Assembly: GCA_016748015.1 (NCBI GenBank)
Contig: JAAOMT010000607.1
Span: 1-64,000, forward strand
From: Geosiphon pyriformis
Taxonomy: Eukaryota; Glomeromycota; Glomeromycetes; Archaeosporales; Geosiphonaceae
Direction of reading: 5' to 3'
DNA: 64,000 bases
The translations under genes were made by a program, and so were the position numbers. This document shows positions 19,858 to 61,184 of this stretch, in pieces (position 1 is the stretch's first letter; the number at the start of each line of letters is the position of its first letter). The notes below the pieces were generated by a model, which was given only the letters and a program-made list of their open reading frames with translations, did not search any database and was not told the DNA's origin.

Positions 19858-21163
19858 ATGAAAATGCTTTCAGGTTTTTGGTGGTTGCTTATTTTGAAGC
19901 CTTTTCACATGGTGATAGTTTCCATAGCAGGATTTGACACAAAACGAGAAGCGAACTTTCCCGAGCATCTTCCAATCAGATATGTAGACCTCAGCCTCCC
20001 CAAAAAGGATTTCTTAAACATTACCAAAGAGCAAAAAAGGTCCAAAATTGGTGAAGACTTCAACTTTCAAAAAGTTTTAGTAGATGACCAAGAGCTCCTC
20101 GGGATGCTAGCTAATAATGCTTACTATGCAAGACAGGCTGCATGTCTTGGAGATGAGAGCGAGCGCCTATGGATGCGCTTTTTTGGTAAAATAATAAAAA
20201 TTTTTTGAAAATTTGAAATGCATCGATATTATATTTGATAATTTAAAATTTCAGTGGGAATGCCAGAAAGCTTAAATCCAACCACAGGAGCATATCAACA
20301 AATAATATGGACTTTCAAATCTAAAGAAAGGAGATACACTCATTGGAAAATGCAAAAATCGACCTTGATTGCTTATCTTAGAATAGAAGGGGCTTTGGTA
20401 GATGAAAGTCATTTTAATGCATGGTTAAAGGGTAGAAAATTTTTTTGGGCCAAGATGAGATACCTGAAATCAAAACCTTACTTTCATGTTAAAAAGAATT
20501 ACTTTACATTCACCGGTTTTGGGCGAGCGGGCAGTAAGTTGTATTTATAATATTAAATATTGTTGCATATGCATATTTTAAATTATTTTCATTTTGAAAT
20601 TTTTTAGTAATAGCAGTATGGGCAGCATTAGAAATTGCTTCTGAATATGCAGTTAAACCAACAGTTGTCACATTCGGCCAACCAAAAATGGGAAATATGA
20701 AATTTGCCCAATTTGTGGCAACTAAAATTACGCTTTATCGTGTCACGTACCGAGATGATTTTACCCCAAGTGTTCCAGCATATGGTTATGATATTGATAA
20801 AAGAGCAATTGAATATTCTCAATTGAGTGGTGAATATTGGATTCCATTTCAATATCAATGTGAATGCTCACCTCTTTTCACAAAAACCTCTGACTTAGAG
20901 CCACCAATAAAGTTTCCGTCTGTTTATAAATGTTTTGAGGTCGGAACATTAAATGAAAATCCGGTGAGGAAATTTAGAACCATTCCAAGGTCAAACGTTA
21001 TTTTTAAAATTTAATGCGTTCTTAATTTTTTTATATCTGCAAGGATTGTAATAAAAGTCGTAATAAACGCAGAAGAAAAGACGGTCGATTAGTTACGACT
21101 AATGAGGGTAATGATCATTTCGGACCTTATTTTGGATACATGATGGGAATATGCCCCTCATGA
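19858..21163 (+). CDS. Secreted class 3 lipase-like protein 1, nucleophile Ser replaced by Gly
   Basis: Four exons (19858-20185, 20255-20533, 20608-20963, 21044-21163) join in frame to 360 residues. A hydrophobic start (about residues 7-24) suggests secretion or anchoring. The alpha/beta-hydrolase landmarks of fungal class 3 lipases are present: TFKSKE at 129-134 at the oxyanion-loop position (normally FRGT), TGFGRAG at 196-202 at the nucleophile elbow (normally GHSLGG), TFGQPKMGN at 224-232, an Asp at 252 or 253 in YRDDFTPSVP, GEYWI, and His346 in DHFGPYFG. The expected Ser is Gly199, so lipolysis by the standard mechanism is not expected. The first three exons alone would end at 21014; the 80 bp intron 3 (GTGAGG donor, CAAG acceptor) restores the His exon, which is conserved in all copies. 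Its role might be lipid binding or regulation, which is inference. Confidence 0.85.
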
Positions 21164-21629
21164 CCGGTTGATATTATAGTATACTCATTGACCCATGTAA
21201 TGCAGTTGTCTTAATTTGCTGATTGCTTTTTTATCAATTGACTGATTTCACTGGCCAAAGATTTCAAAAAAGAAAGTTATAATTCCCCCAAAAATAAAAT
21301 TAAATGGAAAAATATACTCCACCTCCTAAAAATATCCCGCAAACCAGTTATGGCAAAATTACCTGGCAAATTGTGTTCATCAATCAAATGTATTATGATA
21401 ATAAAATGGAAAGACATAAAAAGCAGTAATAAATAATATATTTGTAAGTTACAGGTTCAAAGCTTCTATTCTTACATTATAAATAGTCAATAGTTACTAA
21501 GACCTTTAAGAAAATTTACGAGAATCTGTCAAATTCTCTACATGAACAACATTTGGACAAGTGAATAGCAGACGCGAATTTTTGATAGATAGCACAAATC
21601 GATTAATTTATTAATTTTATAATCATAAG
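21164..21629. other. Intergenic stretch downstream of lipase-like gene 1
   Basis: A short plus-strand frame at 21304-21430 starts MEKYTPPPKNIPQTSYGKI and ends after 42 residues; I do not recognise it and it may be chance. Nothing else is visible. Confidence 0.4.
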
Positions 21630-22025
21630 CATTGGTTTACATACAATTGTTGAAAGATTCAATAAGACGCTACCAGAAATGCTTTATAAGATCTAATATG
21701 TTGTCAATCAATATCACTAAATTCAAAATTAGCTAAATAAGTATTCAATATGCTTGATTAGAGCTCAGAATTTTTCAAAATAGGGTTGGCTCCTGCAAAA
21801 GCCATCAATTTAAAAAAAGAGACTAAATTCTCAATAAAAATAAAGCAACTAAACTGGCATCAAGTTAGTAAAAGTGACAAAATTTTATTACCTGTTTGTT
21901 AATGCAAAGTGAGAAGAAAACTTTGAAAGCTAAAGGCATACGACAGATTCAATATGAAGTCTGACTTTATTTCAAGTTCAAAAGATTATAGTTTTTTAAA
22001 ATGAATTTGTGTTGTATTATTTAGA
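21630..22025 (+). pseudogene. Possible retroelement integrase remnant
   Basis: In broken frames the plus strand reads LHTIVERFNKTLPEML near 21640-21685, which resembles the integrase-core segment HGxVERFNKTL, then GLAPAKAIN near 21785. Near 21940-22020 it reads YDRFNMKSDF, resembling the (A)TDPIWS-type segment that follows the core in some fungal integrase proteins. Frames shift repeatedly. The call rests on short motifs only. Confidence 0.35.
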
Positions 22026-23269
22026 AAATTTATATGCTTCAACACACACGTTTTAAGTAAAGAACTAAACTATTTTCTCAAAGTATATTATTAGAATATT
22101 AACACGCTGAATTATTTTACTTCATTTGTGTTTCCGCTAATAGGCTAGCACAAACTGAAGAATATATTAAAATATTCATAAAAACCTGTTTCAAAGCTAC
22201 TTTATTCGAATGTTTAAAACTATTGTCCTTGAATGGCTTGAATAAAGCTCGCACTTCAAATTGGAGAAATGGTTCAATATTCTTTTTTGCCTCCAAAATT
22301 TGAAACTAATTTTGTATAAGCATTAAAGCTTCTTTTTTTTTAGTCATAAATCTTAAAGGTTTTTTGCGATAAACTTTTTCGTGGCAATGCAATTTGGAAT
22401 TTAAAGTTTAGGTCATAAATGATATATTTGATTGATATGTAAAAACACCATATATAGAACATGAATAAACAATAATAAAGTGCGATCAGTTATCAGCTCA
22501 CAAATGTTTATTGAATTTTTATAATCTTTTTGGATTGAAAAGAAAATTATAATTTATAAATATTTTTGGAATACACTGTCTCAGAGTGATAAAATTTTAT
22601 AAAATAAATTAATATTTAAAAAACAATAATTATGTATTTATTAGGATTGAAACAGAATTGATTAATGAAGTCTTCTAAATAAATAATACTTTTTGAAGGA
22701 ATTTTTAATTAATTTCAGTAGGAAAGTATTTTTCATGGTTTATACGAAGCCTAAACCGTTTTATTATCACCATTTTTGTTACACAAAAGAAATCACTTTC
22801 TAAACGTACTATCAAATGAAGCTTTAAAAAAATTCTCTTCGAATAATAAACCTATTTGATTTTATTCTTTATCAGCACTTATTCACACTTATTGAAAACC
22901 TTGAAATTAAAATAACTCTTCTGGAAGCACATCATTGCACCCTATGTGAAAATGTGAAGAGAGCATTCAAAACAATAAAGAGAAACGGTGTAGAGCATGC
23001 CAATTCTTATTTTTTGAATTCAGTCTTTGAAACTTAATAAAAAACTTTGGAAATGATACAAGAAATTTTTTGTTTTAAAAAAACCACAGTAATTCTCAGA
23101 TAATAAGGTGATTAGAGTTATACAAAAAAATCGATGAAATCTGAATTTATTTATAGTCTGTGCTGCCTTTGTAAGGTATCTATATTTTTCTAATGTAAAT
23201 AATAAGAAGTTTTTTTAACTTCAAATCAAAACATAAATTAAAATATATAAATATTGAAGAAATGTTCAA
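22026..23269. other. Intergenic stretch
   Basis: I see no gene, RNA or repeat in this stretch. Confidence 0.5.
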
Positions 23270-24318
23270 TCAAACAAGCAGATATATGAATTTATATAGA
23301 CATTTCATAATTACAATTCCAAAATATGCTCTTACTAGTTGAAAATTTATAAGATGATGTTTACTAGTTCCAAGGTAAATAAAGGTATAATTCTGAGATG
23401 AATTAGTTAATGTTTCCATGCTATTTGTTGCATTTACTTTTGAATTCGCATTCGGCTCTGAATTTTTTGTTGAAAATGACATACTGGTTGGAGTACTCGT
23501 TATTAAAGTTTGTTTGGCTGGTTCTTGGTGATTTAGACCAGAAGTTGATGTCGCTTGACTTTTTCAAGGTACATAAATATAATTTTTGATTTAGTATATA
23601 ATTTTATTAGAATATTGGGACTAAATAGGTGATGCTTAGATAATATTTCAAGTTCGCTTTACTTGGTTTTCTCTAAACCTTGTAATGCCCCTTTAAATAG
23701 AAAGAATTAGAAATCAGTTTTTTATTAACTTCAATGACTTTGACTCTTTTCTATGTTAAAAATACTTACCAGATGGGTAGAGTAACAGACGTGTTATATA
23801 TCGCAGGGTAATATTGAAAACTACCACCACCATCATTTTTATTGCTATTGAAATTGGAATTCCCAATATTCCAATTTTTGCTGTTATTGTTATTGTCATT
23901 GAAACTTCTATTATTCCCATTTCCGTTGCAATTGGCATTGAAACTCCCAAAATTCAAATTTTTTTAGTTATTTTCATTGTTAATACCGATACCGAATGCT
24001 CCATTGCTATTTGAACCTGATTCAGGAGTGGAGGTAGGGTTAGGAGTTAAACTGGTGATAGCGGCGCCAATAATATCATTAGTCGACCAATCAGAAAGCT
24101 GGAACAATTTGCGATGAGAGACTACAAAAAAATTTAGGTATAAATTTCGAAATTCAAAACAATTTTCAAAGATGTAATTGAATTTCATAATATTTTCTAT
24201 TTTAATAAAAATTTACAAACCTATTAGTTTGCGCCATTACAAAAACCTTTGCCCTGTTCATGAAAATTAAGAATAAAATAATACATTGGAAAACCCCAAA
24301 AAAACGAGCATTGGTCAT
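23270..24318 (-). pseudogene. Asn/Ser/Thr-rich secreted protein gene with an in-frame stop
   Basis: The minus strand shows a likely signal peptide exon (24318 to about 24217, start MTNARFFGVFQCIILFLIF). A second exon (about 24098-23770) has ITSLTPNPTSTPESGSNSN and an Asn/Gly-rich tract, and a third starts at 23558 (phase 2, in frame) with ITSTPTSMSFSTKNSEPNAN. Exons 2 and 3 join cleanly through a GTAAGT donor. One TAA (23966-23964) interrupts exon 2 in the otherwise open Asn-rich frame. The gene is either a recent pseudogene, contains a sequencing error, or uses an unseen small intron. The 3' end is uncertain. The composition suggests a cell-wall or mucin-like surface protein. It is divergent to the type I membrane gene at 25630. 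Confidence 0.5.
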
Positions 24319-25363
24319 TTCTAAAAAAGAAATATGGTTTTTTGCTAGAAAATTAAAATTTCAATGTTTTTTTTAAAAGATTAGAAATGCGGTTATTCAA
24401 TATTTTCGTGTTAGGAAACCTGTCAAGGAATTTTACAATAAAATATAAATGGAAATCAAACAATATAAATGGAAATCAAACAATATAAATGAAAAAAAGA
24501 GAGGAAAGTGAAATTTAGCTTTAACACTATTGCAATTAATGCTGAACTGAACAAATGTTCACAATTAAAAGAAAATATTAAGTCTTGGAATGAATTCTTA
24601 AAAGTTATTTATATAGTAATTTGATAAATTAGATTGGATTTTAGAGTCATTTTTGGTTATTGCTCTTTTTTTCTTTGCAAAAGCTTTATCTTTGTTATCC
24701 ATACATAATATTTCAATGATCCTTACTTTTTTTTAGATTTGAAGCAACAAATACGGATTCATTGAACGTTTTGATTTTGATTTTGATTTTCATTTTCATT
24801 TTCAATCGTAGAATGTGAAAACAGTGTTACACACTTTCTTGCTTACATTTTAATTTTCATTTTCATTTTCAAGCTAGCTTAACCTTTAATTTGGGCGGTT
24901 TTAACCCACTTTCTTTTTTACATGAAGAGTTATAAAGATTATTTTGTAATTAAGCCTTTTGCTATCTCAATAAAAAAAGTGCTAAATAGCAATTTAAAAG
25001 GTTTTTTCTAAAATATTCATTACCCACATTAAAAGACTGCATGTATATAATAAAAAAAATTTATTAATTAATATATATGCGCAAAAAGGGATATTTCCAA
25101 AGTGATCTTCCCTCATTCAATCAGTCGCCCGAATGATGATATAGCCGAAATTCAAATTTGATCACGCCACCCTCGCTCTTTTCAGAGTGTTCATGTATAA
25201 TTAGTTGTCATACAAATTAGGTAATCAAGAAAGTGATCCTTATTCTTTCGGCGATTTCATAATTTGAACTTGACAAAGTTTAAGTCCTCAAAGTGACAGA
25301 AACAAAGGTTTCCCTTTTTTACCAAATTAATATTTAAGTGAAATAAAGCCATTTTGGGCGTAA
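24319..25363. other. Intergenic stretch with short tandem motifs
   Basis: Roughly 19-bp units (aaatggaaatcaaacaatat) are repeated two to three times at 24446-24500. Runs of TTTTGA/TTTTCA hexamers occur at 24770-24806 and 24850-24870. No gene is seen. It is the shared upstream region of two divergent surface-protein genes. Confidence 0.6.
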
Positions 25364-25470
25364 ATTATCAGGCTTTGTGCTTCCTGACCAGTGAAAACAC
25401 AATTTTGTTAAATAAATATCATGCTTTGTACTTCACGTATAATGAAAAACACACTTTTTCTTAAATATGT
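25364..25470. repeat. Degenerate tandem duplication of about 54 bp
   Basis: Two adjacent units share the order TCAGGCTTTGTGCTTC / TCATGCTTTGTACTTC, then GAAAACACA, then TTAAATA. They lie about 160-265 bp upstream of the ATG at 25630 and may be promoter elements. Confidence 0.5.
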
Positions 25471-25629
25471 TCCACATTGGGTTTCCACTTTTTCTTAACG
25501 TTTCAGGCTGGACCGAAGCATATATTGATTTTATTTCCTTCTCAATCATACATTGTGTTTCTGGATTTACAGAGCTTTACTTTTTTTATATTTTTGGAGA
25601 GATTCAAAGCTTGAGGCGAAAACATTAAA

Positions 25630-26257
25630 ATGTTAAAATCATACTTTCTGAGAATGGTATGGATTTTGGCTTGTTTTTTTTCTTTGGGTAAGTTTTGCCC
25701 CATTAATTCTATGGTTTTTTAGTCGATAGATAAGAGAATGTACGATATTCTAAAACATTGAAAACTCTATAGATCAAAAAGTTTTAGGACAAAACTCAGA
25801 AATTGAAGGATCTCAAGGGTTTGATTTTGCCAAAACCCAAATACCAAATCCAATAGGCGTAATTACACCTACTTCATCTATTCCGTCAATAACAGAACCA
25901 AGAAATGTTATTTCTTCTACGAAATCAAAGATGCCTTTATCAAAATCTACTACAAAACCAATAACCTCTATAAAAATAACTTCGTCCCCATCGTCCGATT
26001 CAACATCTAATCACACAAAAACATCACCCACAGATTCAAAACAAAATAGCTTAAACACATCAAAAGAAACAATGACAGAAGCTCCAAAACAGAATAGCGA
26101 AATCCCGGGAAGAAAAATAAATCTACCGAATATTGGACCTATTGTTGTAGCTTCTAGTGTTGGTCTCTTGGTTTTGATTGTTCTGACCGCAACTTTATTT
26201 ATGACGAAACGAAATCCTCAAATAATCGAAGAAGTTTCAGGTGATAGTAAAGCATGA
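25630..26257 (+). CDS. Ser/Thr-rich single-pass membrane protein (mucin-like)
   Basis: Two exons (25630-25687, 25773-26257) join in frame through a GTAAGT donor to give 180 residues. Residues 1 to about 20 form a hydrophobic signal peptide whose last codon spans the intron. Residues 45-140 are rich in Ser, Thr, Pro and Lys (for example ITSSPSSDSTSNHTKTSPTD) and would be heavily O-glycosylated. Residues 143-163 (PIVVASSVGLLVLIVLTATLF region) form one transmembrane helix, followed by a 17-residue tail starting MTKRNP. The layout resembles fungal wall-stress sensors or mucin-like signalling receptors in outline only; I see no WSC or other named domain. The first 73 residues are missed if the internal Met at 25931 is taken as start. 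Confidence 0.7.
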
Positions 26258-26536
26258 AAAATAAACATTTGATATAGGAAATAGTAGAATTTTCAATGAA
26301 TAAATTCTTAATTTGTAGAAATGATAATTTTTATTTTTCATCGTGAATTCTAATAAGCGAATTTATTCCAATTTCATTAATAAAAACTTGCACTCGCATT
26401 GAAACATGATTAAATTTTATCAATTGAAAATACACAACAATTATCTGGTCAAATTTCTTCAAATTTTTCAATTAAAATACACAGAAATAAATGCTTATTC
26501 ACTGTAATTCTTGGGAATTAACCTCATTACTTTGGT

Positions 26537-29500
26537 TCAACTTTGTGCATCTACAAAGATCTGATTGCCTTCATCTTCGTCCTCGCTGATCTTGGCGTTG
26601 TGTTTTTGTTCCACAGTCACTGTTTCAACGACCATATTATCAAGGTCAATTTCAGTGGGGTCAATTTCGTTACCGAATTCATCAACATAAACCGTTTCAT
26701 TGACGATGATTTCTTCAGTTATAATTTTAGGATTCACCGTCGACTCACGTTTTGTCGAGGCACCTACTACGGTTGAAGCATTGGTAAAAGTGCTGTCGCG
26801 ACGAGGATCATTGTAAACAAAGCTCCCCAGATTCAGAGAAGAAAATTCGTTCTTAGAATTTAAGGAATCAGCTTTTGTTGAGGTTTGAGATGCGTGAGTC
26901 ATTGTGCTATCCCTTCTTTCCATCTCTTTATTAACAATTGGAACCATATGTAGTGGTAAAATTGGAGAAAAACGATCTGAAGTGAAGTTGTCAAATTCTT
27001 TTCCAACTGGTTTGGCATATTTTGCAGCCCCTTGAGCATCCAAAACATCATGGTCACCCGAAATTACTTGAGCAAAATTTGAATGTGTAGATTTTATAGA
27101 AATCACATCACCATCTCGAATATCCGGCTGACCCAAATTAAACCGAGAGAAACTTTCATTGTTTTCTTGTTCAGGAGACATTAAAAATTGTTCAACGTTG
27201 GCGGCGATCCGGGCATTTTCGATTAAAGAAAAATTTGTGGTTTGACGATCATCGGAGTCAGTAGGAGTGATTGAGACTTTTGGATTCAAAGACATGTCAT
27301 TATCATTATCCTTGAAAGCTGAGGAAATAGAATCAGGTGAAGAATTTCCTATGAAAACTTGGTTAGGTAAATCTTGGTGGCTTTTAAGAGCACTATTTCC
27401 ATTGTTTGAAAGCGAGATTTTATTTGAACCAATTGAATTAACAGTGGACAAAATTTGTTCATCGGAATGAGAAGGTCGAGATAAACTATCTACAGAGGAA
27501 TTAAGAGATTTAGTCTGAGTTTTTAGGGTGTCTTGCGGCATCTTTTGAGTTGATTCAACAACATTTTTATCAACCAAAAAAGCAGATCCAGCCAGAATAG
27601 CTCCAACATTTTTTGTAGTAATTTCAGACGGGCTAATTGTAGCTGGCAAAGGTTTTCGCATTGGACGCTCAAATTGAGTAGGTTTCGAGTTATTGCTTGA
27701 ATTCAGGTCGTTGTTTGGAGACATTAATGGTTCACTCTTCTCCAAAGCTGCTAGAGAAGGTGCCGTGTCAGAAGACTCGGGAATTTTCTCGGACGATTCA
27801 TCGCGAGTTGGAGGTTTCGAATTTCTCTTTCCTCCTAATCCTATTGCAGAAATGGCCGCCATGGCTCCTCCTGCAGCAGCAAGGCCAATTTTTTTACCTA
27901 TTCCAATTGATGGTGTCGATGATGGGAGAGCATTAGAAGAGCGTGTATTAGAATGAGGTAATCCTAGGGTTGGCGATATTGGTTCAGTCTTAGATTTTTT
28001 GAGTTTCTCATAAGCCGAATTTGGTGATTTCACATCTGCATCCATAATACCCCCAGCTGCAAATTCATTCGGTGGTAGGGCGCCCATTGTTTCAGTAGGT
28101 TTGGAATAAATTGTTGGCTGCTGATTTCCTTGTACTTCATGAGTCCCATCTGATGAGATCGGCACGGCTACATGAGAAGGTAGGGTTTTTGCTCGCTCAC
28201 CCTGGGATTTTTTCGCATTTGGCAGAAATAATGCTCCGGGTGTCGACTGCCCAGAAGAAGATGGACTTGAATTCGGTGCACCATTCTCACTACCCAGCAA
28301 TAATTGAGAATCTTCCGCCCTTTCTTTGGAATTTTTGATGTAATCAGGATTGACGAGATAGAGTTTCATAAAGTTCTCAAGATTATTGATTCGTTCAATT
28401 ATGCCTGCTCTGCCATCACTTTTTTCTAATAATGGGACTCCTTTATGGAATTGACCTTTCAATCGCTTCTTGGTTTGTCGTTTGCAACAGCACAGTTGAC
28501 AGCATCCCCAAGGACAAAGGGGTCTCTTGCCTTAAAATATTTAATATTAGCTTAAATCATGAAACATAAATAGATACGCTATCAGTGAGGTTTGAACATA
28601 CCAAAACAACACCACATTATACCAATAAGTAGAGCTAAAAAGGCTGCGATTAAACCAATGGTTTGTAAAAGCTAAATTTAGATGAAGAAAAAATTTAGAG
28701 ATATACCATTTTAATCAAAATAAAACGTTTTCTGCTTTAAATAGGAAATTTTGAGCTGCGCTACTTACGTCGTTCATTCTGTCAATTTTAAGCCGAATAA
28801 AATAAACATGAAATGAAAATCAATTAAAAACGAAAAGTTGAAATAATTTATTGAAAAACCACCCACCGAGTTTCTCGATTTATTTCTACCACCCAATCAT
28901 ATGTTCCCACAAATAAGCCTGCATAAAGACCGCCAACAATGTTAACTGGGGGTTCCATATAAGCGGTGTTTGTAACTTCTACATGTAGCGATCAAACAAT
29001 TAATTACTTGAAGGACCCGAAAAATTTTATCTACTTTAAATATTATGAACTTACCATGCTTAGTAGTAATATATGTAATTTCGAAAGGAATTGTTGGAAT
29101 TCCAATATAACTGACCCATTTTGGATTGATTCGTCTTGAAATGTGTCGAGACACAAACATGAAGTTTTCCTTTTGATAAAAAAAGATTCTCTTGATATCA
29201 AATTCATTTTCATCATGACGGAACTGAAATTTTTTTAAAGATAAACCTTACAGCGAAAGGTCCAATTATTTGCTTATTCGCTGAATCGAGGCTTCCATAG
29301 AAATTTGGGTCTAATTTTTTAATTGTTTTACTCGTCTTATCTGGTAAAGTACGTGGATCGAATTCTAGATTGGTGCATTGAAATGTCAATTGTGAATAAT
29401 TGTGCCATTGTCACTTTTCGTAGTTAACTCAAAAAGAATATTTTAAAGCATACCTGTGTCAACGGCACTTACAAACATTCCTAAATCATTGTTCGCGTTA

Positions 29501-44080: not shown

Positions 44081-44974
44081 TATTTAAATCAATAATAAAG
44101 CAAATCATTCGAAATTAATAATACATATGCTTAGAGTTTTATTTTATTGTTTCCCGAACGGACAAGTCAAAATATCCCCACCCGATAAAAGCAAAACCCA
44201 TTCAATAATGATGACGGTAAACAGGAATGACGGTAAAACCGAAATATTTTCGGTTTAAAATTTAAAATTTTTTATCCCAAAGAGTCAAAAACCATGAACC
44301 AATCAAATATCGTCATTTCGTATAGAAGCTCATCACAGAAATGAACAAACCTATACCATCTGGTTTTACTTAAATTTCCTATTCATAGCTATAACCCATA
44401 TTTAGTATTCATTATTTTTGATAAATTCAATCCACTTTTCTTTTTTTCTTTTTTTTTTTAAGAAAAAATCAGACTCTTGTCCTTTCATTTTTGTTTAGAC
44501 ACTTTTAATCACCAAAGATTACCTTAATACGTACAATAAACATTACCTTTCCCGAAATAAGGTAGTCGCACTTGATTAACCTTAACCCTTTTGAAGTATT
44601 TTAATTTTTTTCGAAAAAACAATTAGGTTTCTTAGCTCCTTTGTGTTTTCTTTTTCTAGTTTAAAACTTTTTATTTTAATTTGGAAAATCAAAATCTATC
44701 ACGAATATATACTAGAACAATTACATCAATTCATTGGTTTCAATATAAATAGTCTTAGTGGGTAATTTTTGAAAGAAACAGTAATAACCTTTCCTCGCTG
44801 TAAAAAACTTTAAATTTCAAATTTAAAGAATTAATCAATTAATTTCATTCTTGCTTTAAAATACATGATATATTCGGTTTCCTGTTGGTCAAAATTTAAA
44901 TTCAATTAATCTATCACCGCTTGTTTCTACATTCAATTAAATAAAATATTTTCTCTACATTATCCCCAAACATC
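44081..44974. other. Upstream region of the P450-like gene
   Basis: There is no gene. The last 100 bases become pyrimidine-rich before the TATA-like element. Confidence 0.45.
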
Positions 44975-44982
44975 TATTTAAA
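44975..44982 (+). promoter_or_regulatory. TATA-like element of the P450-like gene
   Basis: TATTTAAA is followed by the C-rich tract CCCCCTCTCCCC 38-45 bases before the ATG at 45020, a TATA plus pyrimidine initiator arrangement common in fungal promoters. Confidence 0.45.
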
Positions 44983-45019
44983 CCCCCTCTCCCCATCATT
45001 CAATTTCATTTCAAAATCC

Positions 45020-46804
45020 ATGGCCGAGGTGTCAATAACAGTTATCTTATCATTTCTTTTGACCGCTTTCACTTATATATCGTTCGCCTATATCTTTGTT
45101 CACTTTCTACTTCTAAACGACGATAAAAAAAAATCTAATCGTCATAATCAAGGAAAACATCGCAAACAATCATCATTCTCAACAATGAAAGCTTCAATTG
45201 TTAAACAATCGACTAGAACCAACACAACTACCACCACAACAATGAAGAAACCAATCACAAATGTAAATACAAGCCCTTTAACCCTATCGTTTGTCCTACC
45301 CAAAGGTATAAAGCCTTTACCTGGGCCAACTTCATTACCAGTCATTGGTAATCTCCATCAGCTATCTGATCCTTTGCACATGACCTTGAATGATTGGGCT
45401 CAAATTTATGGTCCTATATTTCAAATTCGTATGGGATCAAAAGTTTGGGTCATCTTAAATGATCATCAAATTGCCAATAAACTTTTCCTCGAGAAAAGTG
45501 ATATTTATCAACCATCATCTTCAAATTTATTAATCTCATCCACCCCTTTATCTCTGACCGCAAGGTCGCTTGCTCAACAAGCTTTATCACAAAAAACGGT
45601 CGAAACAAATTATACTCCTATTGTCCATAAACAAACTAAATCCTTAATGAGACATTTCTATAAATACTCGAACCAAACCATTGACCCTAGCGAAGCACTT
45701 GGAGAATTTGTCTCGAAAACCTTTTCCACTTTAACCTTTGGAAGTGTGGCAGAAAAATTTTCTGATGATTTTAGTCAAGTATTAGAATTAACCAAATCTT
45801 TAGAATCAAAAAATGCTCGATTAGAAGCTTTACCATTTCTTCGTTCTTTCACCTCATCACCGAAACTTGAATCAGAAGCTCGTGAAAGTGTACTAAAGTT
45901 TCAAGAAGTTTCCATGAATTTGGCAGCCACGTTGAAAAATCGTAACGCTAAAAAAAGCCCTGCCATTGATAAATCTTTCGTTTCACAAATTTTACGATCT
46001 ATGAAATCGAAAAATTCAATCGATGACCATGAATTAATGAATTTGAATACAAACTTTTTGTTCAATGGTACCGATTATACGATCAAAGAAATTAAATGGG
46101 TCTTCCTGCTGTTGTCATATGCACCACAAGTTCAAAAACGAATTCAGCAAGAATTACTCAAAGTAGTTGGAAAAGGAAAATTACCTGAGGCTAACGATTA
46201 TGCTAATCTGCCTTATTTGCGAGCCACCATAAAGGAAATCATGCGTTTCAGGTAAAAATCGTAATGATTTTTCCTGTTTTATTTTAAATAGTTTTGAAAT
46301 TCATTTTTTTGAAATCTCACTTTTTGAATTTTTTTTTTTTATAGACCCGTTGGTTTCTTCTCAAAAACATACACAGCAACAAAAGATGACATCTACGGAA
46401 ATTTACACATCCCACTCAACTCAACTGTAATCTTAAACACAAACTTTCTTCACTTTAGTCCGTCAGTTTTCGAACGTCCAAAACGATTTTCACCTGAAAG
46501 ATTCTTGGACTCTAATGGAAACTTAAAAGAAATCGATTCAACTCTGGACACTTGGTTGTTCGGTAAAGGACCAAACGAAAATTTGACTCAACACCTAACC
46601 GAAATCCTTTTATCATGTGTTACCACCTTCACCTTATCACTATTCAACATACAAGCTGAGATTGATCAGAAAACTGGGGAAGAGGTTGATATTAATTTGG
46701 AAGGCATTTCACGTGGTTTGGAATTGGATGCACCAGAATTCAAGATTATATTGGAACCGCGGGAAGATGTGCTTGATACTGTGGCCATTATTGGACGATA
46801 TTAA
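45020..46804 (+). CDS. Cytochrome P450-like protein lacking the heme-ligand Cys
   Basis: Two exons (45020-46251, 46345-46804) encode 563 residues. Residues 7-30 form an N-terminal membrane anchor. A Lys/Thr-rich linker leads to the Pro hinge KPLPGPTSLPVIGNLHQL. Later landmarks are the I-helix segment FNGTDYT (348-354), the K-helix ExxR (E406 to R409, KEIMR) and a PERF-type motif FSPERF (459-464). The heme-binding loop, normally FxxGxRxCxG, reads FGKGPNENLT at 483-492: the first FG and G are kept, but Arg becomes Asn488, the axial Cys becomes Asn490, and the following Gly is Thr492. The frame is open and spliced cleanly, with no stop or shift. Standard thiolate-heme catalysis is not expected. 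It could have another heme ligand, be a regulatory paralogue, or be in early decay. Confidence 0.85.
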
Positions 46805-47782: not shown

Positions 47783-47996
47783 TTATTTGCCGACTTTGAA
47801 CTCTGGATGTATTTCTTTGAACGCTTTGATTTCTGCTCCAATAACAAATAATTTATATGCATGATTTGCCCATCCGGCGACAAGTAAGCTTGTGACTGTT
47901 TTTATGAAGTAATACAATGTAACGTTCACGGGAGCAAGGGAAACGCCAGTTAGTTTAGCCATTTCGAATGCATTGCTGTAACCAATTGGGTCAAGC
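47783..47996 (-). pseudogene. Orphan terminal exon, unknown gene
   Basis: After a possible 3' splice site (TAG at 47999-47997) an open frame of about 70 residues reads LDPIGYSNAFEMAKLTGVSL, then VTLYYFIKTVTSLLVAGW, and ends with IHPEFKVGK and TAA. It has markedly less AT-rich codon use than its surroundings, as real exons here do. No start codon or upstream exon is visible, and a Tc1 fragment lies immediately downstream. It may be a gene truncated by transposition. I do not recognise the family. Confidence 0.35.
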
Positions 47997-51829: not shown

Positions 51830-52930
51830 GATTGTAATATATACATAATAGATAATGCTAAACATTGCCCGGAGAAAAATACCCGTGAACGCCATTTTCA
51901 TCACTATCTATTACAGTCTAACAATTTCGGCATTTATATATCTCAGATTCTCCGGTGTTTTAGGTGTTTCCGCACCAACTGCAATCTTGGGCATATAAGC
52001 TTCATTTTGGATAATAACATAAACCCCTAATTCCTCTGCTTTGGCTATTAAACATTTCTCAAAATCAAGAATGTGCCCAGCCAAGCATCTTTTTAAATGT
52101 TTTTTTTTGTAATTTTTCATGTTTTTCGGTTCTTCATATTTGATATCTCAAGAGGAGTAATAATAATGACATCAAATTCATGAGTCCAAAAAGCAATAAT
52201 TTTTTTGTGAATTTCATTTTAGAAGTGTTTAATTTTTTGTTGAATGCATGTTATTGCTTTATCAAGCCCTTTAGCCTACTTCTTTTTGCATTTAAAAGTT
52301 GATGTATCAACTTCTTTTTTTGTGATATTAAATTGTTCATATAGATGCAAATATGAGCAATATTTTCAATATTTTATTGACTAATTTTATCTATTCCTTT
52401 AGTAGGAGAATATCATGTAATGGGTGTACAAATGCCAAGTAATAAAACTGCATAAATAAAGCTATTTGCTTGGGTTTTGCAGACTTGTTTTTGTATCTCA
52501 TAAAAATCAGGCAAACTTCTATTTATTAGTTTTTTGAAACTAGATAAGTTTGCTATCAGATATTATTTTGTATATAAAGGACCACTTGCACTTTGTTTCA
52601 AAATGGAAAGAACATAATGAACATTCATTATTATTTAAACTGGAAATAGGCTTGTATTGATAAAGTATAAAGATAATGTATTAGTACATTTTTTATAATT
52701 GTGTACTATATTGAATAACTTCATTTCATGCGGCCAATCTTTGATTAATTCTTCATTTGTAATATTGAGATAAATAATTTCATAAAAGCATGTCCAACCA
52801 AACAACAGCTTTACAAGACATTTGTTCACTCCAAATAGCTGAATTATCATAGAAAAGAAGTTGTTTTTTTCTAAAAGTTATAAGCTTTAACCAACTTCTT
52901 TCAATAATACCATTTTGATTTCTTCTAATC
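51830..52930 (-). mobile_element. Degenerate TnpB/Fanzor-like gene, copy 1
   Basis: In broken minus-strand frames the order matches TnpB/Fanzor proteins. The fragment QLFGVNKCLVKLL lies near 52840, where family members read WFGATRWxYNKCL. A Lys-rich helix (LISQKKKLIHQLLNAKRSR) follows near 52310, then FWTHEFDVIIITPLEISNM near 52180 and IAKAEELGVYVIIQNEAY near 52030. A zinc-ribbon frame then has CSWCG, GESEIYKCRNC and a DxDENG sequence (VIDSDENG) at the RuvC-III position, where intact members read DRDxNxA. The last Arg is Ser, and stops and shifts are many. It is a dead copy of an RNA-guided-nuclease family common in fungal and protist transposons. Confidence 0.55.
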
Positions 52931-53360
52931 TAATCTATTCCACTACTGTATTAAAAACAAATCTGACCAATCTTATCCATTGCTTTAAGAGTTGTTTTTG
53001 ATAATGGTTTGGATGTATCTTAATTATTAATGTTCATTGAGAATTTTTTCTGTTTTTTGGCACTTATTAAATAAGTTTCATTGCTAAGTATTTTTTGCTT
53101 CGAAATACTTATACTTATTCACTGAAACTTAAGCTGGTAAAATTGTAACCGACGAAGAATGTGTAATGCTTCAATAATATTTATCATGCTTCGAGATATT
53201 TATTTGTCTCGTTAGGTAAAAATAAAAAGTGATCAATGAAAGTAAATCTGATACCTGAAAGTTTTTTCATATTTTAAGCATTGGTTTTTTATATGCTTAA
53301 GGTATACTAAATTCCCAAATGTTATTCTGTGCTTATCTTGATTCTCTTTTTGTTTGTCAG
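52931..53360 (+). promoter_or_regulatory. Upstream region of lipase-like gene 2
   Basis: From about 53080 the sequence matches the upstream blocks of lipase-like genes 1 and 3. It begins directly beside the TnpB/Fanzor-like remnant. Confidence 0.5.
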
Positions 53361-53467
53361 AACAAATAACAATCGACGATTCCAAAGATTACATGTATAT
53401 TCGTTTGGGAAATTTACCATTTGACGAAAATATTTGCTTTTTGATTAATAAACCTAAAACCATATAG
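53361..53467 (+). other. Conserved mini-ORF upstream of lipase-like gene 2
   Basis: After TTTTTGTTTGTCAG, which looks like a 3' splice site, a frame reads IDDSKDYMYIRLGNLPFDEN and stops at 53467. It is homologous to 19676-19765. A longer pyrimidine run precedes it than in copy 1. Confidence 0.35.
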
Positions 53468-53470
53468 GGG
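53463..53470 (+). promoter_or_regulatory. TATA-like box of lipase-like gene 2
   Basis: TATAGGGG followed by AATAGAT lies 79 bases before the ATG, as in copy 3. Confidence 0.45.
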
Positions 53471-53541
53471 AATAGATCATCGAAGCCAGGATACAGTGAT
53501 AAGTTCAATATCTAAGAAGTAATTTTTATTCATGTTTGAAA

Positions 53542-54842
53542 ATGAAAATTCTTTCAAGCTTTTGGTGGTTGCTCATTTTGGGGCTATTTCACATGGTGAT
53601 AGTTTCCATAGCAAAATTTGAAACGAAACGAGAAGAGTATCTTCCAATCAAAGATGTAGATCTCAGCCCCCCCAAAAAGAATTTTATAAACATTACTAAA
53701 CAGCAAAAAAGGTCCAAAATTGATGCAAGCTTCCACTTTCAAAAAATTTTAGTAGAGGATCAAGAGCTCCTCGGGATGCTAGCTAATAATGCTTACTATG
53801 CAAGACAGGCTGCATTTCTTGGAGATGAGAGCGAGCGCCTGTGGGGACGCTTTTTTGGTAAAACCATATATATTTTTTGAAATTAGAAAATGCATCAATA
53901 TTTATATTTGATAATTTTAAATTTTAGTGGGAATGCCAGAAAGTTTAAATCCAACCAAAGGAACGTATCAACAAATAATATTGACTTTCAAATCTAAAGA
54001 AAGGGGATACAATCATTGGCAAAGGATAAAATCAACATCTATTGCATATCCTAGAATACAAGAGGCCTATGTAGAAAAAAGTCATTTTAATATATGGTTA
54101 AAGGGTAGAAAAAATTTTTGGACTAAAATGAGATACATGCAATTAAAACCTTACTTCAATGTTAAAAAGAATTACTTTACATTCACTGGTTTTGGGCGAG
54201 CGGGTAGTAAGTTGTGATTATAATATTAAATATTGTTGCATAATGCCATTTTATATTATTTTCATTTTGAAATTTTTTAGTAATAGCAGTATATGCAGCA
54301 TTAGAATTTGCTTCTGAATATGCAGTTAAACCAACAGTTATCACATTCGGCCAGCCACAAATGGGAAATAAGAAATTTGTCGAATTTGTAGCAACTCAAA
54401 TTACGCTTTATCGTGTCACGTATCGGGATGATTTTACCCCAAGTGTTCCAAGATTTGGTAAAAACTTTGATGGAAAAGCAATTGGCTATTTTCAATTGAG
54501 TGGCGAATACTGGATTTCATTTCAAGATCAATGTGAATGCTCACCTCTTTTCACAAAAACCTCCGACTTAGAACCATCAGTAAAGTTTCCGTCTGTTTAT
54601 AAATGTTTACAGGTCGGAACATTAAATGAACATCCGGTGAGGAAATTTTGAAATTTAAGAATTTTCCAAAGCTAAATGTTATTTTCAAATTTAATGCAAT
54701 CTGAATTTTTTATATCTGCAAGGATTGTAATAAAAATCGTAATGACCGCAGAAGACAAGACGGTCGAAATGTTAAGACTAATGAGGGTAATGACCATTTC
54801 GGACCTTATTTTGGATACATGATGATTGAATCCTATTATTAA
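53542..54842 (+). CDS. Secreted class 3 lipase-like protein 2, nucleophile Ser replaced by Gly
   Basis: Four exons (53542-53857, 53928-54206, 54281-54636, 54723-54842) give 356 residues, with splice phases identical to copies 1 and 3. It lacks four residues near the N-terminus relative to them (an in-frame 12 bp deletion around KREEYLPIK). The nucleophile elbow again reads TGFGRAG (Gly195), the oxyanion loop reads TFKSKE, the Asp motif YRDDFTPSVP is kept, and the last exon carries DHFGPYFGYMM. Reading on without the third intron would stop at 54651 and lose the His. The start is ATG 53542; an earlier in-frame TTG is not used. Confidence 0.85.
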
Positions 54843-56619
54843 TTTTTTGAGATAAGCAAGTTAGTTTAATTAGCTAGATGCCTAGTAGTTTCAATTTTAA
54901 TAAAATAAATAAATCTAGTTTAAAGACAGCAGCCTCAATAAAGATCAATTATAATAAATATGATTCACCATTTTTTAAAAATGAATGAAGTTGCTCTGGT
55001 TTTTCCAAATTACAAAATAGTTTTTGAAAAATCTCTGCAGTACTGGATACCATCTATCAAATAATATTTTGTATAACAATTTTCTTTTGAAATTTCTTTC
55101 TGATCAATCTCACTCTTACAACTTTTCAATATCTATTTTATAAATTCAAATCCAAATTTGAAAATCAGAGTGGTACCAAGTAGCAACAAGAAATTTTTGA
55201 CTTTTAATTTAATTGGTGTTATAAAAGCAGTTTTCTAAGCTATACATAATATCACAGATATCTGAAATATCACAGGATTTTCCAGATTGTACTGGAATAT
55301 TTTAGATGTTTTTTAAAATAATTAGTAAGAGATCAGAATATGTGAATTTAAAAATAAGGACTGAATGTATTTCCAATTCTTCAAACAGATCAATACTAAT
55401 TACAAAAATTAACAACCAGATTGGTTTATACTTTTATTTATCTTGTCTTATTTGGTTTTTTGTTCTGTTTTATCATAATAGTTTGATCTGTTTCCACTCT
55501 TTTATAGCTCATTATTTTTGCAGACCAAAATATTTTGCTCAAGTTGTCCAAGCTTTTTACATTGTTTAACAAAAAAAATTGTTTGAAAAAATTTCTTGCA
55601 CAGCTTGCTTAAGCTATTTCGCTTTAGTCTATAGCACTTAAATCAAAAATTAGCTTGTTTACAGTAGTTATTTAATGTTTGAGAGTTTGTTAATCAGATC
55701 TAACTTGTTATACAATTTCATTTTTGTTATTCTCTAATAATGTTAATCAAGTTAGATTTATCAGCACACTCTTTATTAATATTATTCTTACTTGGTTTGT
55801 TTTGTTAATTAAAATATCTGTTCTATTACTTTAGAAGTTTAAAACAATTTTTAATAATACAAATAAAACCTAGTTTTGGCCAACTAATTATATCATCTTT
55901 GTTAAATATTATCTTACTGCAATAAATATTACTAAATTTCATTAAATCAATATATAATATTAATTGAAAAAAGAAATATTATTCAAACTTTGTTGTTAAT
56001 TTTAATAAATGTTACAAGGCTGAATAAAGTTATTAATAATACAATCTGTTATAATAACCAATATTGCGAAAGTCATATTTTTACAAAAATATTATACTAT
56101 TGCATTTAATAGCAGATTAATTAACATTTATATCATATAATAATCTAATATTAATTAATATAATTTACTTTAAGTATTTTATTAAAGCTAGTATTGAATT
56201 AACAATTTTTAATTATGTTGTAAAAATGCTTATTATATTATTTATTAGTGGTTTATTAAGTTAATTAACAAAATTATTACAGTTTTGTCAAAAATAACTT
56301 TTTTCTACTTTTAATGTTTAAAATTCTGTTAATATAACAAATTATGTTTTGTATTTTATTTTAGTTAAATTTCAAGTTTTACTTATAGAATACAAAAATA
56401 ATAAATAACAAAATATAAATGAAAACATAAAAACCAAAAAGTGTAAAAAAATAACAACAATCTATAATAAAATTCCAAAAACGAAAATAATTTTTAATTA
56501 TACATTATTAATTAAGATATATTCGAATTATTTTTGAAAATAATTATTAAAATAAGAAATAAAGTTGACCAAATGTGCCTTTAATATAATAGTGAAATAA
56601 AACAACCAAAAGAAATTAA
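54843..56619. other. Intergenic stretch
   Basis: AT-rich sequence separates lipase-like gene 2 from the second TnpB/Fanzor-like remnant. The 87-residue frame at 55306 has no recognisable feature. Confidence 0.45.
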
Positions 56620-57605
56620 AAGAGTATTATTGAAGAAATTGGTTAAAGTTTATAACTTTTCAATAAAACAACTTCTTTTTAATGATAATTTTTATTTGAA
56701 ATAAGCAAAAATTTTATAAGTCGTTGTTTAAGTTTAGTTTTGCCAATATTATAAATGAAAAAATTGATTAAGCACTGATTGTATAAAAAAAATTTATTAA
56801 AAATAATACATAGTAACAACAAAATGCAAAAATCTATTATTTTTTCTTTTGTTTTTGTAAAGTACCATATCAAATAATTATAATTTGTGCCAAAATTTTA
56901 GCAAAATCTTTTGGAATTACTTCATGTTTTTTATTTTTACATTTTATTAATATACAAATATGTATATTAATATATATTTATTATGGCTTTTTAAGCACAA
57001 ACAACAAATGACTTTTTTTATACAAGATAATATCTAATAGCATACCTATCTATTCTTGAAAAATCAATGAATGAAAGTTTGTTTAAATTTATAAAATACA
57101 AAAAAAAGTTTACAAAACCCAAATAAATAGCTTTATTTATGCAGTTCCTATTAATTCTGTTATTTATACACCCTTTATATAGTATTTTTTACTAAAGAAA
57201 AAGGTAAATTGGTAAACAAAAAACAAGAAGACTAAAATACTTGCAAAATGAAATTTACAGAAAGACTATTGCTTTTTTTGCTCATAAATTTAATGCCATT
57301 ATAATTTTTTCTTTTGAGATATAAAATTACAAAAAAAACAGTTAAAAGATGCTTAGCTGACATATTATCAATTTTGACAATGTTTAATAGCCAGAGCAGA
57401 GGGATTAAAAGTTCATGTGATTATCCAAAATGAAGCTTATACATCCAAAACACCGGGGGATCTGAGATATATAAATGCCGAAACTGTAAAATTGTAATGG
57501 ATAGAGATGAAAATAGTGCTCACAGAATTTTTCTCTGGGCATTGCTTTGATTCTCTTGGGAGATCATGCAGAAAATAGTAGCAATGCTTAGCATTATCTA
57601 TTATT
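56620..57605 (+). mobile_element. Degenerate TnpB/Fanzor-like gene, copy 2
   Basis: This is homologous at DNA level to copy 1 (51830-52930) in opposite orientation, with matching blocks at 56620-56690, 57090-57170 and 57245-57605. The 3' part reads IARAEGLKVHVIIQNEAYTS followed, after a small deletion of the first zinc-ribbon Cys pair, by GSEIYKCRNCKIVMDRDENS and AHRIFLWALL. YTSKT, CRNC and MDRDENSAHR match the TnpB/Fanzor zinc ribbon and RuvC-III motif, and the DRD is intact here. The upstream half is full of stops, and the Lys-rich helix region of copy 1 is missing. Confidence 0.6.
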
Positions 57606-59469
57606 GATATATTACAATCCACCCGTAATAAGTATCCTAAGGTCTAAAATTAAATTATAAGTAATTCATTAAAGAAAATAAAAAAACTTTGATAAGCAAA
57701 GATCCAATTAGTAACATCTGGTCAACAAATAATTTTATTAGTAGATTTGTAAACACAAGAATAGGGTACCCAAGTTCTTTTAGAACTTGATAAACCATAT
57801 ATTGGATTCTGATCTGTGAATTTTCGTAGTAGATGATCATTTTAAAATATGTTTAAATGACTGAAAACCATTTTTAGAACAAAATAGGTTACTTGTAATA
57901 AAATCTGTTTTGTGATATTTAATATTTATAAATAAAATTTGAAGCTAAGGTCAATTTGACTTCTTAATCCTCCTTTAAAGTGGTTTTTTATCTACTTTGA
58001 TCTAAAACTAAGCCAAGGTTTTTTTTATTTCTTGAAATTCGCTTTTAGATCCCGAATCTTTTATCTCAATGAATAGAAATAATCTGAATTTTTATATCTA
58101 AACAAATTTCTTATTGGGAATATTTTCCCACTGTTTGAATATATTAATTTTAGTAAGATAGATGACAGTTAAAATCAAGCTAGAAATCCTTTCAAGAAAA
58201 TAGATATATATTTTTAGCTAATTCGTTAAAAGCTCACTCTAATGTATAAAGCATAATCTCATGGAAACTATATAAGAGTATTAAATGATTTAAGCTTATT
58301 TATGCGGCTTCTCTAACAATAGTGATTTAAAAATCAAAACCTTTTCCGAATATGAGGAAAATATTTTATTGAATTATTAGAAATTTTAATATTTAAAAAT
58401 TGAAGTAATTTTACAATGTGGGAAAACAAATGAATTTGGTTTATTTTTGTTTGCCTTTTATAATTTTTTTATCAATGTGAAATGAGATGAGTTTGTTCAT
58501 TTTAAAAGTTTTAACCTAATACAATTTTCAGTGGTCGAATCAAAATTTAATAAATTATAAGCCTGAAAATGTTTTTTGGGCAATTCAAAAAATTTGACAT
58601 TAAGAAGCAATTAGAATAAAGTTAGAAATAGACATTTTAAGCTTTAGGATGATAGCTGAGAAATCCAAAAAAATAAACTTTTGAATTTTATTTTAATTTG
58701 ATAAAAATAGGATGTAAAAATTGGAATAAATATTTAGCTGCTTTATAAAATTTAATAGATTAAAAAAAATCATTCATAACTTTGAAATTGATGTCGATCA
58801 CAGTTTGTAAATTTTTATATTTGATAAAGAAAATACCGTTTTGGGTAAAATCTTACTTTGTAAATATTTTTAGCATGTCGAATCACTTTGAAACTAACTT
58901 TAACAAAGACCTTGGATGAAAAAGAAAATTAATTGTTTTTAAAAAAATTTCTAAGCCTTTGAATTATATTCAAAATTCACGTATTCTGAAAAAAATCTGA
59001 AAATCTACAACATATTGGGTTTTCCATCTATTAGCTATTTTATAGATTAATCAAAACGATTTAATACACATTTATTGCTATGGCAACAGTTATTACTGTC
59101 TACCATAATGGACATCATTTAGCGAAATCTCTCGTCTGTTTTCCCTTTTTCAGCGCATCCTGAATCAACTCCTGTTAATCCCAAATTTAGTATACAAAAC
59201 TGGCTATTTTAAGAACATGGTAAAGAACCAAGGACATATTTTTAAAAAATTTAAGCCATATTCCTTGAAGGCTAGTTGATATCGTTTGTTTAAGAATTCA
59301 AAAATTACATATGGGATGATGGGTTAAATAGAAATTTTTATTATATATCGAACACATGTGAGGTGGCCGAATACAGTCAAAGTCGTCTATATGAATTTAA
59401 ATATTAGCCTACCTGGGAAGTCAAATTCTCAAGACTATATAAGTGCAGATATTTCAATAATATATTGAT
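57606..59469. other. Intergenic stretch
   Basis: No gene is supported. The 61-residue minus frame near 57655-57840 is hydrophobic and unassigned. Confidence 0.45.
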
Positions 59470-59734
59470 TCACTGCTAATATTCTTTGCTTCGAAATACT
59501 CATATCTATACACTGAAACTAAGTTGGTAAAATTGTAACCGAAGAAGAATGTGTAATAATATTTATCATGATTCGAAAATATTTATTTGGCTCCTTAGGT
59601 AAAAATAAAAGCTGATCACTGAAAGTAAATCTGGCATCTGAAAGTTTAAGCATTGGGTTTTCTAAATGCTTAAGATATACTAAGTTCCCAAATGTTATTC
59701 TGTGCTTATCTTTGATTCTCTTTTTGTTTGGCAG

Positions 59735-59857
59735 AACAAATCGATCGTCAACAATTCTAAAGATTACGTGTATTTTCGTTTGGGAAATTTAAAACAATAT
59801 AGGGGAATAGATCATCGAAGCCAGAATACAGTGATAAGTTCAATATCCAAGAAGTAA
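59735..59857 (+). other. Mini-ORF remnant upstream of lipase-like gene 3
   Basis: The frame begins like the others (VNNSKDYVYFRLGNL), but a deletion removes the PFDENIC part and the frame then runs through the TATA-like region to 59857. The conserved peptide is therefore not maintained in this copy. Confidence 0.3.
59798..59805 (+). promoter_or_regulatory. TATA-like box of lipase-like gene 3
   Basis: TATAGGGG followed by AATAGAT lies 79 bases before the ATG. Confidence 0.45.
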
Positions 59858-59876
59858 TTTTTATTCATGTTTTAAA

Positions 59877-61184
59877 ATGAAAATTCTTTCAAGCGTTTGG
59901 TGGTTACTCATTTTGAAGCTATTTCACATGGTGATAGTTTCCATAGCAAAATTTAAAACAAAACGAGAAGCGAACTTTCCCGAATGTCTTTCAATCAAAC
60001 ATGTAAACCTCAGCCCCCCAAAAAAGAATTTCTTAAACATTACCGAAGAGCAAAAAAGGTCCAAAATTGATGCAGACTTCCACTTTCAGAAAGTTTTAGT
60101 AGAGGATCAAGGGCTCCTCGGGATGCTAGCTAATAATGCTTACTATGCAAGACAGGCTGCATATCTTGGAGATGAGAGCGAGCGACTATGGGAGCGCTTT
60201 TTTGGTAAAAATCATAAATATTTTTTGAAAATTAGAAAATACATCAATATTTATATTTAATAATTTTAAATTTTAGTGGGAATGCCAGAAAGTTTAAATC
60301 CAACCGCAGGAGCGTATCAACAAATAATATTGACTTTCAAATCTAAAGAAAGGGTATATGATCATTGGAAAAGGATAAAATCAACCTCGATTGCATATCC
60401 TAGTATACAAGAGGCCTACATAGAAAAAAATCATTTTGATGTATGGTTAAAGGGTAGAAAAAAATTTTGGACCAAGATGGAAAACCTGAAATTAAAACCT
60501 GACTTCGATGTTAACAAAGATTACTTTACATTCACTGGTTTTGGGCGAGCGGGTAGTAAGTTGTATTAAAAATATTAAAAATTTTTGCATATGCATATTC
60601 TAAATTATTTTCATTTTGAAATTTATTAGTAATAGCAGTATACGCAGCATTAGAATTTGCTTCTGAATATGCAGTTAAACCAACAGTTGTCTCATTTGGC
60701 CAGCCACAAATGGGAAATAAGAAATTTGTCGAATTTGTAGCAACTCAAATTACGCTTTATCGTGTCACGTATCGGGATGATTTTACCCCAAGTGTTCCAA
60801 AATATGGTTATACCTCTGATGGAAAAGCAATTGGCTATATTCAATTGAGTGGCGAATACTGGATTCCATTTCAAGATCAATGTGAATGCTCACCTCTTTT
60901 CACAAAAACCTCCGACTTAGAACCATCAGTAAAATTTCCGTCTGTTTATAAATGCTTTGAGGTCGGAACATTAAATGAACATCCGGTGAGGAAATTTAAG
61001 AATTTTTCCTAAGTCAACGTTATTTTTAAAATTTAAAACGATCTGAATTTTTTTTATCTGCAAGGATTGTAATAAAAATCGTAATAAACGTAGAAGACAA
61101 GACGGTCGATTAATTAGGACTAATGAGGGTAATGACCATTTCGGACCTTATTTTGGATACATGATGATTAGAACATATTATTGA
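59877..61184 (+). CDS. Secreted class 3 lipase-like protein 3, nucleophile Ser replaced by Gly
   Basis: Four exons (59877-60204, 60277-60555, 60630-60985, 61065-61184) give 360 residues, and exons 2-4 have the same lengths as in copies 1 and 2. Landmarks are a hydrophobic N-terminus (SSVWWLLILKLFHMVIVSIA), TFKSKE at the oxyanion loop, TGFGRAG with Gly199 at the nucleophile position, TFGQPQMGN-like SFGQPQMGN, YRDDFTPSVP, GEYWI, a Cys pair in DQCECS, and His346 in DHFGPYFG. Copies 2 and 3 are closest to each other. Substitutions among the three are mostly scattered and no copy has a stop or frameshift, which suggests that selection has kept the frames open. Confidence 0.85.

Follow-up and report, generated by a model that had tools for sequence, protein, structure and literature searches.

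Can a lipase which has lost its catalytic serine be kept by a genome for another purpose? This question is raised by three genes, here named A, B, and C, of Geosiphon pyriformis (Glomeromycota, Archaeosporales), which are located in a window of 64,000 nucleotides comprising positions 1–64000 of a contig designated C328. A first-pass annotation of the window had described them as three paralogues with open exons and products of 356–360 residues, in which glycine has taken the place of the nucleophile serine of class 3 lipases, and had proposed an inherited pseudoenzyme family. The gene models were rebuilt exon by exon from the raw sequence, and the rebuilt models agree with this description. 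All three genes are interrupted at matching positions by three GT-AG introns, and their frames stay open up to the terminal stop; the encoded proteins are 78% (A and B), 79% (A and C), and 86% (B and C) identical. The answer which we favour, with a confidence somewhat short of an even chance, is that the three genes may encode pseudo-lipases which are maintained for binding or as decoys, without acyl-serine catalysis. The features of the three genes are as follows.

19858-21163, plus strand: gene A, four exons, 360 amino acids
19858..20185, plus strand: gene A exon 1, hydrophobic N-terminus
20255..20533, plus strand: gene A exon 2, FKSK oxyanion loop, ends at the elbow
20515..20532, plus strand: gene A elbow GFGRAG, nucleophile codon GGG (glycine) at 20521-20523
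20608..20963, plus strand: gene A exon 3, aspartate motif TYRDDF, GEYWI, cysteines
21044..21163, plus strand: gene A exon 4, histidine motif DHFGPYFG and stop
53542-54842, plus strand: gene B, four exons, 356 amino acids
53542..53857, plus strand: gene B exon 1
53928..54206, plus strand: gene B exon 2, FKSK
54188..54205, plus strand: gene B elbow GFGRAG, nucleophile codon GGG at 54194-54196
54281..54636, plus strand: gene B exon 3
54723..54842, plus strand: gene B exon 4 and stop
59877-61184, plus strand: gene C, four exons, 360 amino acids
59877..60204, plus strand: gene C exon 1
60277..60555, plus strand: gene C exon 2, FKSK
60537..60554, plus strand: gene C elbow GFGRAG, nucleophile codon GGG at 60543-60545
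60630..60985, plus strand: gene C exon 3
61065..61184, plus strand: gene C exon 4, histidine motif and stop

That these proteins belong to the class 3 lipases follows from a match to the Pfam family Lipase_3 (PF01764) with 40.6, 41.5, and 42 bits for A, B, and C, respectively, the curated cut-off being 22; no further Pfam family was matched at E ≤ 0.001. In a search of the sequences of solved structures (PDB) the best match was the lipase of Thermomyces lanuginosus (TLL), with an E value of 4e-8 for protein C and of 3.6e-21 for a profile of 11 paralogues, ten of which carry glycine and one alanine in the elbow. In both alignments the glycine of the elbow GFGRAG is placed onto the nucleophile serine in GHSLGG of TLL (position 146 by visual count in the profile alignment, which is the longer one). 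The nucleophile serine of the GxSxG motif of active class 3 lipases is missing from all three proteins, and their oxyanion loop reads FKSK in place of FRG(T/S). The catalytic aspartate is present, TYRDDF being aligned to THTNDI of TLL, and the catalytic histidine is found in the motif DHFGPYFG. The latter was assigned by motif, as the alignment to TLL stops at EYWI and HFGPYFG lies beyond it; from this motif we take its histidine to be equivalent to the catalytic histidine of TLL. HFGPYFG is common to serine-bearing paralogues, for example the gene with the elbow GHSLGG at 2204 kb of contig C370. Four cysteines, residues 287, 289, 311, and 323 in the numbering of A and C, are kept in all three proteins, so that the pattern first reported, with GFGRAG and FKSK in every copy and the aspartate, the histidine, GEYWI, and the cysteines retained, was seen again in full. 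Standard acyl-serine chemistry is thus predicted to be unavailable to A, B, and C, as the nucleophile is absent and the oxyanion side chain is not conserved.

Three ways in which a nucleophile might nevertheless be supplied were considered and rejected. Splicing could not provide an elbow serine, since the splice donor immediately follows the elbow and no serine for that place is encoded on either side. RNA editing from adenosine to inosine turns AGY into GGY codons, which is the wrong direction for restoring serine. A different residue acting as nucleophile would have spoken against a pseudoenzyme family in the terms of the first-pass annotation; no other serine is placed there in the alignments to TLL, serine does not lead any column among the 45 best conserved in the glycine models, and the invariant threonine of the aspartate motif is found in TLL too.

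The three genes belong to a family which has been amplified in this genome, as had previously been only surmised. Genome searches covered 124.7 Mb in 406 contigs, and merging the exon-3-type matches of four homology searches yielded at least 322 lipase-like loci, which are not proven genes, on 115 contigs. This number is a lower bound, as each search scored the best 113–150 of 556–748 candidates; the exon-3-type places used were 138 of 150, 97 of 129, 149 of 151, and 147 of 153 listed in the respective search. In a tree of 54 gene models A, B, and C fall inside an all-glycine clade of 11 models (support 98/91), which in a second tree of 44 models comprises 10 models (support 91/78), one having been left out. 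The three copies first described are therefore real, but the group to which they belong is larger. Close copies are located at 66–72 kb of C328, just beyond the window, and at 33–59 kb of contig C254, with further relatives on C311, C356, and C400; the clade takes in the copies just beyond the window and others on C254, C311, and C400. The arrays on C328 and C254 contain serine-bearing paralogues as well. Genes seem to be lost from the family too: in-frame stops were found in relatives at 40.4–41.7 kb (L043, three stops) and 57.6–58.9 kb (L045, one stop) of C254 and at 110–111 kb of C400 (L049, two stops). Of all models 37 of 40 with glycine and 8 of 10 with serine were free of stops, these being favourable counts because the aligner penalises stops.

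How common glycine is at the nucleophile position was determined in several ways. Among 57 gene models, a sample skewed to relatives of gene C, 40 have glycine in the elbow, 10 serine, and 6 another residue, one being unreadable. A phase-1 intron directly follows the elbow in 54 of the 56 readable models (38 of 40 with glycine, 10 of 10 with serine, and 6 of 6 with another residue), and the DNA pattern of elbow plus splice donor could therefore be counted throughout the genome. This gave the family count which the first-pass annotation had suggested, namely 186 sites with 128 glycines, 26 serines (25 AGY codons and one TCN codon), and 32 other residues. As a control the pattern was read backwards, which yielded five sites with any residue and none with glycine, TCN serine, or AGY serine; about five chance sites among the 186 are suggested by this control. 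The pattern is strict and misses 246 of the 322 loci, and 28 of the 128 glycine places, being unlisted, could not be matched to any of them. A lipase homology match adjoins 56 of the 100 listed glycine sites and 20 of the 26 serine sites, a measure which undercounts, as the matches come from the best-scoring candidates of each search; one serine site scored as unconfirmed, at 877.8 kb of C401, is modelled as a lipase. The ratio of glycine to serine was 15:7 among the matches of gene C and 29:3 and 31:2 among those of two GHG-type queries. Glycine is common in every sampling and forms the majority in the pattern count, its exact share depending on the sampling.

The residues which are neither serine nor glycine are of nine kinds (arginine, alanine, tyrosine, cysteine, aspartate, asparagine, phenylalanine, leucine, and glutamate) and account for 21 of the first 100 listed elbows when counted by eye. 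That glycine exceeds these diverse residues is as expected if glycine itself is favoured or inherited. All four third bases of the glycine codon are in use among the 100 listed sites (GGT 43, GGA 29, GGG 16, and GGC 12), which suggests that glycine is old in many lineages. Among serine codons AGY makes up 25 of the 26 elbow sites, compared with 17% in the other frames of the window and 35% in the lipase genes. As the codon type is inherited, this excess shows only that serine and glycine are one transition apart at this position.

Besides the nucleophile the catalytic residues are retained almost throughout. The aspartate is present in all 39 readable glycine models, all 10 serine models, and 4 of 5 models with other residues. 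The histidine is found in 36 of 37 readable glycine models (one has asparagine), in all 7 readable serine models, and in 3 of 4 of the remainder, a retention somewhat favoured by the method, since the aligner relies on similarity to the histidine motif to locate the last exon. In 33 nonredundant glycine models there is little or no variation in the four C-terminal cysteines, the glutamate, tryptophan, and isoleucine of EYWI, and GPxFG. The position of the oxyanion threonine or serine ranks 232nd of 255 columns in conservation in the same set, and only 4 of 37 readable glycine models have threonine or serine at the last place of the oxyanion loop, the alignment of this column being less sure in distant members. 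The near-universal retention of aspartate and histidine in the glycine models is not explained by loss of an enzyme alone.

Whether A, B, and C are merely decaying, a possibility which had been dismissed from their open frames, was examined by simulation and by codon models. In a neutral simulation with a majority ancestor and a star tree, three to four stops per copy were expected at the observed numbers of changes, and all three copies remained open in none of 2000 runs. The pairwise ratio of nonsynonymous to synonymous changes (omega) is 0.61–0.67 among the three genes, with bootstrap intervals reaching 1, and 0.30–0.34 when each is compared with the copy on C311. A codon model gave an omega of 0.70 for the three genes (twice the log-likelihood difference to an omega of 1 about 3.5, P about 0.06), of 0.74 for five close copies (about 4.1), and of 0.62 for six intact copies, the copies D, E, and F being added (about 15.7), which is clearly below 1; these tests use grids of kappa, and P was read by hand from the chi-square distribution. 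A separate pair of glycine genes on C331 and C373 has an omega of 0.60 (0.40–0.94). As no neutral run left all three copies open and omega is near 0.7, the frames are maintained, with the amino acids of the close copies only weakly constrained. Random decay is thus far from the open frames observed, but the test of omega does not settle the matter for the three genes by themselves, selection being clear only when D, E, and F are included.

The history of the glycine was followed in the two trees. In the tree of 54 models, which leaves out 3 of the 57 (under 160 amino acids), the glycine label needs 11 changes, at least 7 of which are forced by well supported branches, and 45 of 500 shuffles of the labels were as low. 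The tree of 44 models was calculated with the elbow masked, and like the approximately unbiased (AU) tests it leaves out 13 of the 57 models, namely those with an unreadable elbow or fewer than 200 amino acids after masking and the model at 111 kb of C400. Here 8 changes are needed, at least 6 being forced by supported branches, and 248 of 500 shuffles were as low; glycine is therefore not clearly clustered in this tree. A single origin of glycine across the family was rejected (AU p 3.07e-6), as was a single origin of serine (AU p 1.76e-5), long branches being present in both tests. As the trees have no outside root, these changes may be losses or regains of serine. A serine gene at 92.8 kb and a glycine gene at 115.6 kb of C328 are sisters in both trees, with a support of 100/99; the model of the former contains one in-frame stop near the last intron, which may reflect a mis-spliced model or a broken gene. 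In the tree of 54 models a serine gene at 279.4 kb of C234 and a glycine gene at 11.8 kb of C112 are likewise sisters. The glycine of A, B, and C counts as one event and not three, because it is one inherited state in close copies. The notion of an inherited pseudoenzyme family thus holds for the clade around A, B, and C, which shares one glycine state, but not for the wider family, which with this AU result and at least six changes does not form a single lineage of pseudoenzymes. An evolutionary switch at the nucleophile is also conceivable, if unlikely: with aspartate and histidine constant, serine and glycine one transition apart, and at least six moves between glycine and other residues, possibly in both directions, the glycine members might be poised lipid binders able to regain lipase activity by a single base change.

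For the maintained pseudo-lipases the following role is proposed. A, B, and C are close copies in a very large and probably secreted family with the class 3 lipase fold, many members of which have glycine for the nucleophile serine, and they are kept as folded proteins, as shown by the open frames, the conserved core, and the retained aspartate and histidine. The aspartate–histidine pair would still line the old acyl-binding cleft, which would bind a lipid or acyl ligand, and at the symbiotic interface the proteins could serve to carry the ligand, to sequester it as decoys, or to sense it. The fungus apparently lacks fatty acid synthesis of its own and probably takes fatty acids up from outside; the fungal fatty acid synthase domain PF08354, the one such domain sought, had no match in the genome search. 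Its absence fits what is described for the Glomeromycota in PMC11134847, where the association of Geosiphon with Nostoc is also described.

Some of the evidence can be accommodated by other explanations. If the glycine members worked by protein–protein contact, as regulatory or structural partners in heteromers with serine paralogues or on surface proteins of the host or Nostoc, the pocket would be irrelevant. The conserved fold core and cysteine pattern and the serine-bearing neighbours in the arrays on C328 and C254 would be in line with this, and the neuroligins, serine-less alpha/beta-hydrolases which act by adhesion, provide a precedent (PMC12931606); but such a role does not predict that aspartate and histidine are both retained beside the lost serine in nearly all glycine models, and we regard it as unlikely. 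This retention despite the absent nucleophile would suit proteins which are not dead at all, in which the aspartate–histidine pair activates water or substrate directly for a different, slower, or nonhydrolytic reaction in a cleft opened by glycine, and the lack of a serine-led column among the 45 most conserved ones points the same way. The oxyanion side chain is, however, among the most variable positions, the pair may be kept for loop structure, and we know of no natural enzyme of the class 3 lipase family with glycine as nucleophile, all of which makes a chemistry of this kind quite improbable. The change from serine to glycine could finally be a tolerated loss in redundant copies of a relaxed family with high turnover which are heading to pseudogenes. 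An omega which for A, B, and C does not differ from 1 at P of about 0.06, the stops in the glycine relatives at 40 and 57 kb of C254 and at 111 kb of C400, the diverse other residues at some elbows, and a glycine label which in the 44-model tree clusters no better than shuffled ones are what such turnover would leave behind. It would not leave frames open far beyond neutral expectation, glycine dominating in place of a spread of residues, aspartate, histidine, and cysteines nearly invariant across deep branches, or omega values of about 0.30–0.34 towards the copy on C311, and we consider it rather unlikely.

The reading as maintained pseudo-lipases has several points against it. For A, B, and C by themselves omega does not fall clearly below 1, and with stops in 3 of 40 glycine models some copies are dying. 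Glycine sites are confirmed as lipases by adjacency in only 56 of the 100 listed cases, the other 44 and the 28 unlisted ones falling outside this confirmation, and among the best Pfam matches serine is slightly more frequent than glycine (12 glycine to 15 serine). A, B, and C are probably secreted, a view based only on the hydrophobic N-terminus, where the best 12-residue mean of hydrophobicity is 2.1–2.8 from residue 10. A binding job, moreover, may be just one of several which fit.

Among known systems the fungal class 3 lipases of the Rhizomucor miehei and Thermomyces lanuginosus type (PF01764) are the closest, being of the same family by Pfam and PDB search, with the aspartate motif and EYWI aligned, the histidine motif shared by pattern, and a hydrophobic N-terminus as in a secreted protein. 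A, B, and C differ from them by glycine for serine and FKSK for FRGT, and from TLL also by a cysteine-containing C-terminal tail (CxC, YxC, CN) which lies beyond the alignment. The family profile also matched the lipase-like immune proteins EDS1 and PAD4 of plants (E 9e-9 to 7e-5), whose signalling does not depend on lipase activity. Both proteins are intracellular, however, and the further (EP) domain of EDS1, PAD4, and SAG101 was not found in A, B, and C, which match Lipase_3 alone at E ≤ 0.001. In the neuroligins the change is from serine to glycine. They share an alpha/beta-hydrolase fold without catalytic serine which works by binding, according to PMC12931606, but are animal membrane proteins of the carboxylesterase family, a domain not found in A, B, and C at E ≤ 0.001, so that they serve as an analogy only. 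Large numbers of Lipase_3 proteins are reported for the Entomophthorales, with 348 in Entomophthora muscae, in PMC11105155, where the expansions are, in contrast, discussed with the use of host tissue; for the Glomeromycotina a mean of 189 lipases of all types is given in PMC12574304. Large lipase numbers and serine-less binding hydrolase folds are thus already known, and fungal class 3 lipases with serine changed to glycine were not found in the literature searched, which was the open literature outside the Geosiphon genome paper, with nothing on point in the accessible parts of PMC4771724, PMC8778642, and PMC9601742.

In comparative genomics annotated lipase genes are as a rule tallied as enzymes, and such tallies could mislead, as a large share of the lipase genes of Geosiphon may not cut lipids. 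Sister genes with glycine and serine offer a test of what the retained aspartate–histidine pair is for and of nucleophile loss and regain in serine hydrolases. If the glycine members bind lipids of the host or of the cyanobacterium, they would be candidate components of a system handling lipids at the symbiotic interface.

The surroundings of the genes were compared between the copies as well. Gene C and the copy at 33–36 kb of C254 (L042) are 74–95% similar over 1000 bases upstream (window 58877-61184), whereas in the other nine copy pairs compared upstream similarity is lost at about 400 bases; in all ten pairs similarity ends directly past the stop codon. Promoter conservation was considered as a sign of expression and proved uninformative, as similarity between copies in the 400 upstream bases is roughly that of the introns and no higher. 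Elsewhere in the window two similar protein kinase fragments (PK_Tyr_Ser-Thr, Pkinase) are located at 524-1207 and 8186-8617 on the minus strand, the longer of which has a tail resembling Sel1 repeats by eye only, without a Pfam match. An open frame at 4443-4946 on the minus strand matches Peroxidase_2, a family of haem-thiolate peroxidases. Two adjoining open frames at 44945-46804 on the plus strand match cytochrome P450, the first having a threonine-rich stretch near its N-terminus.

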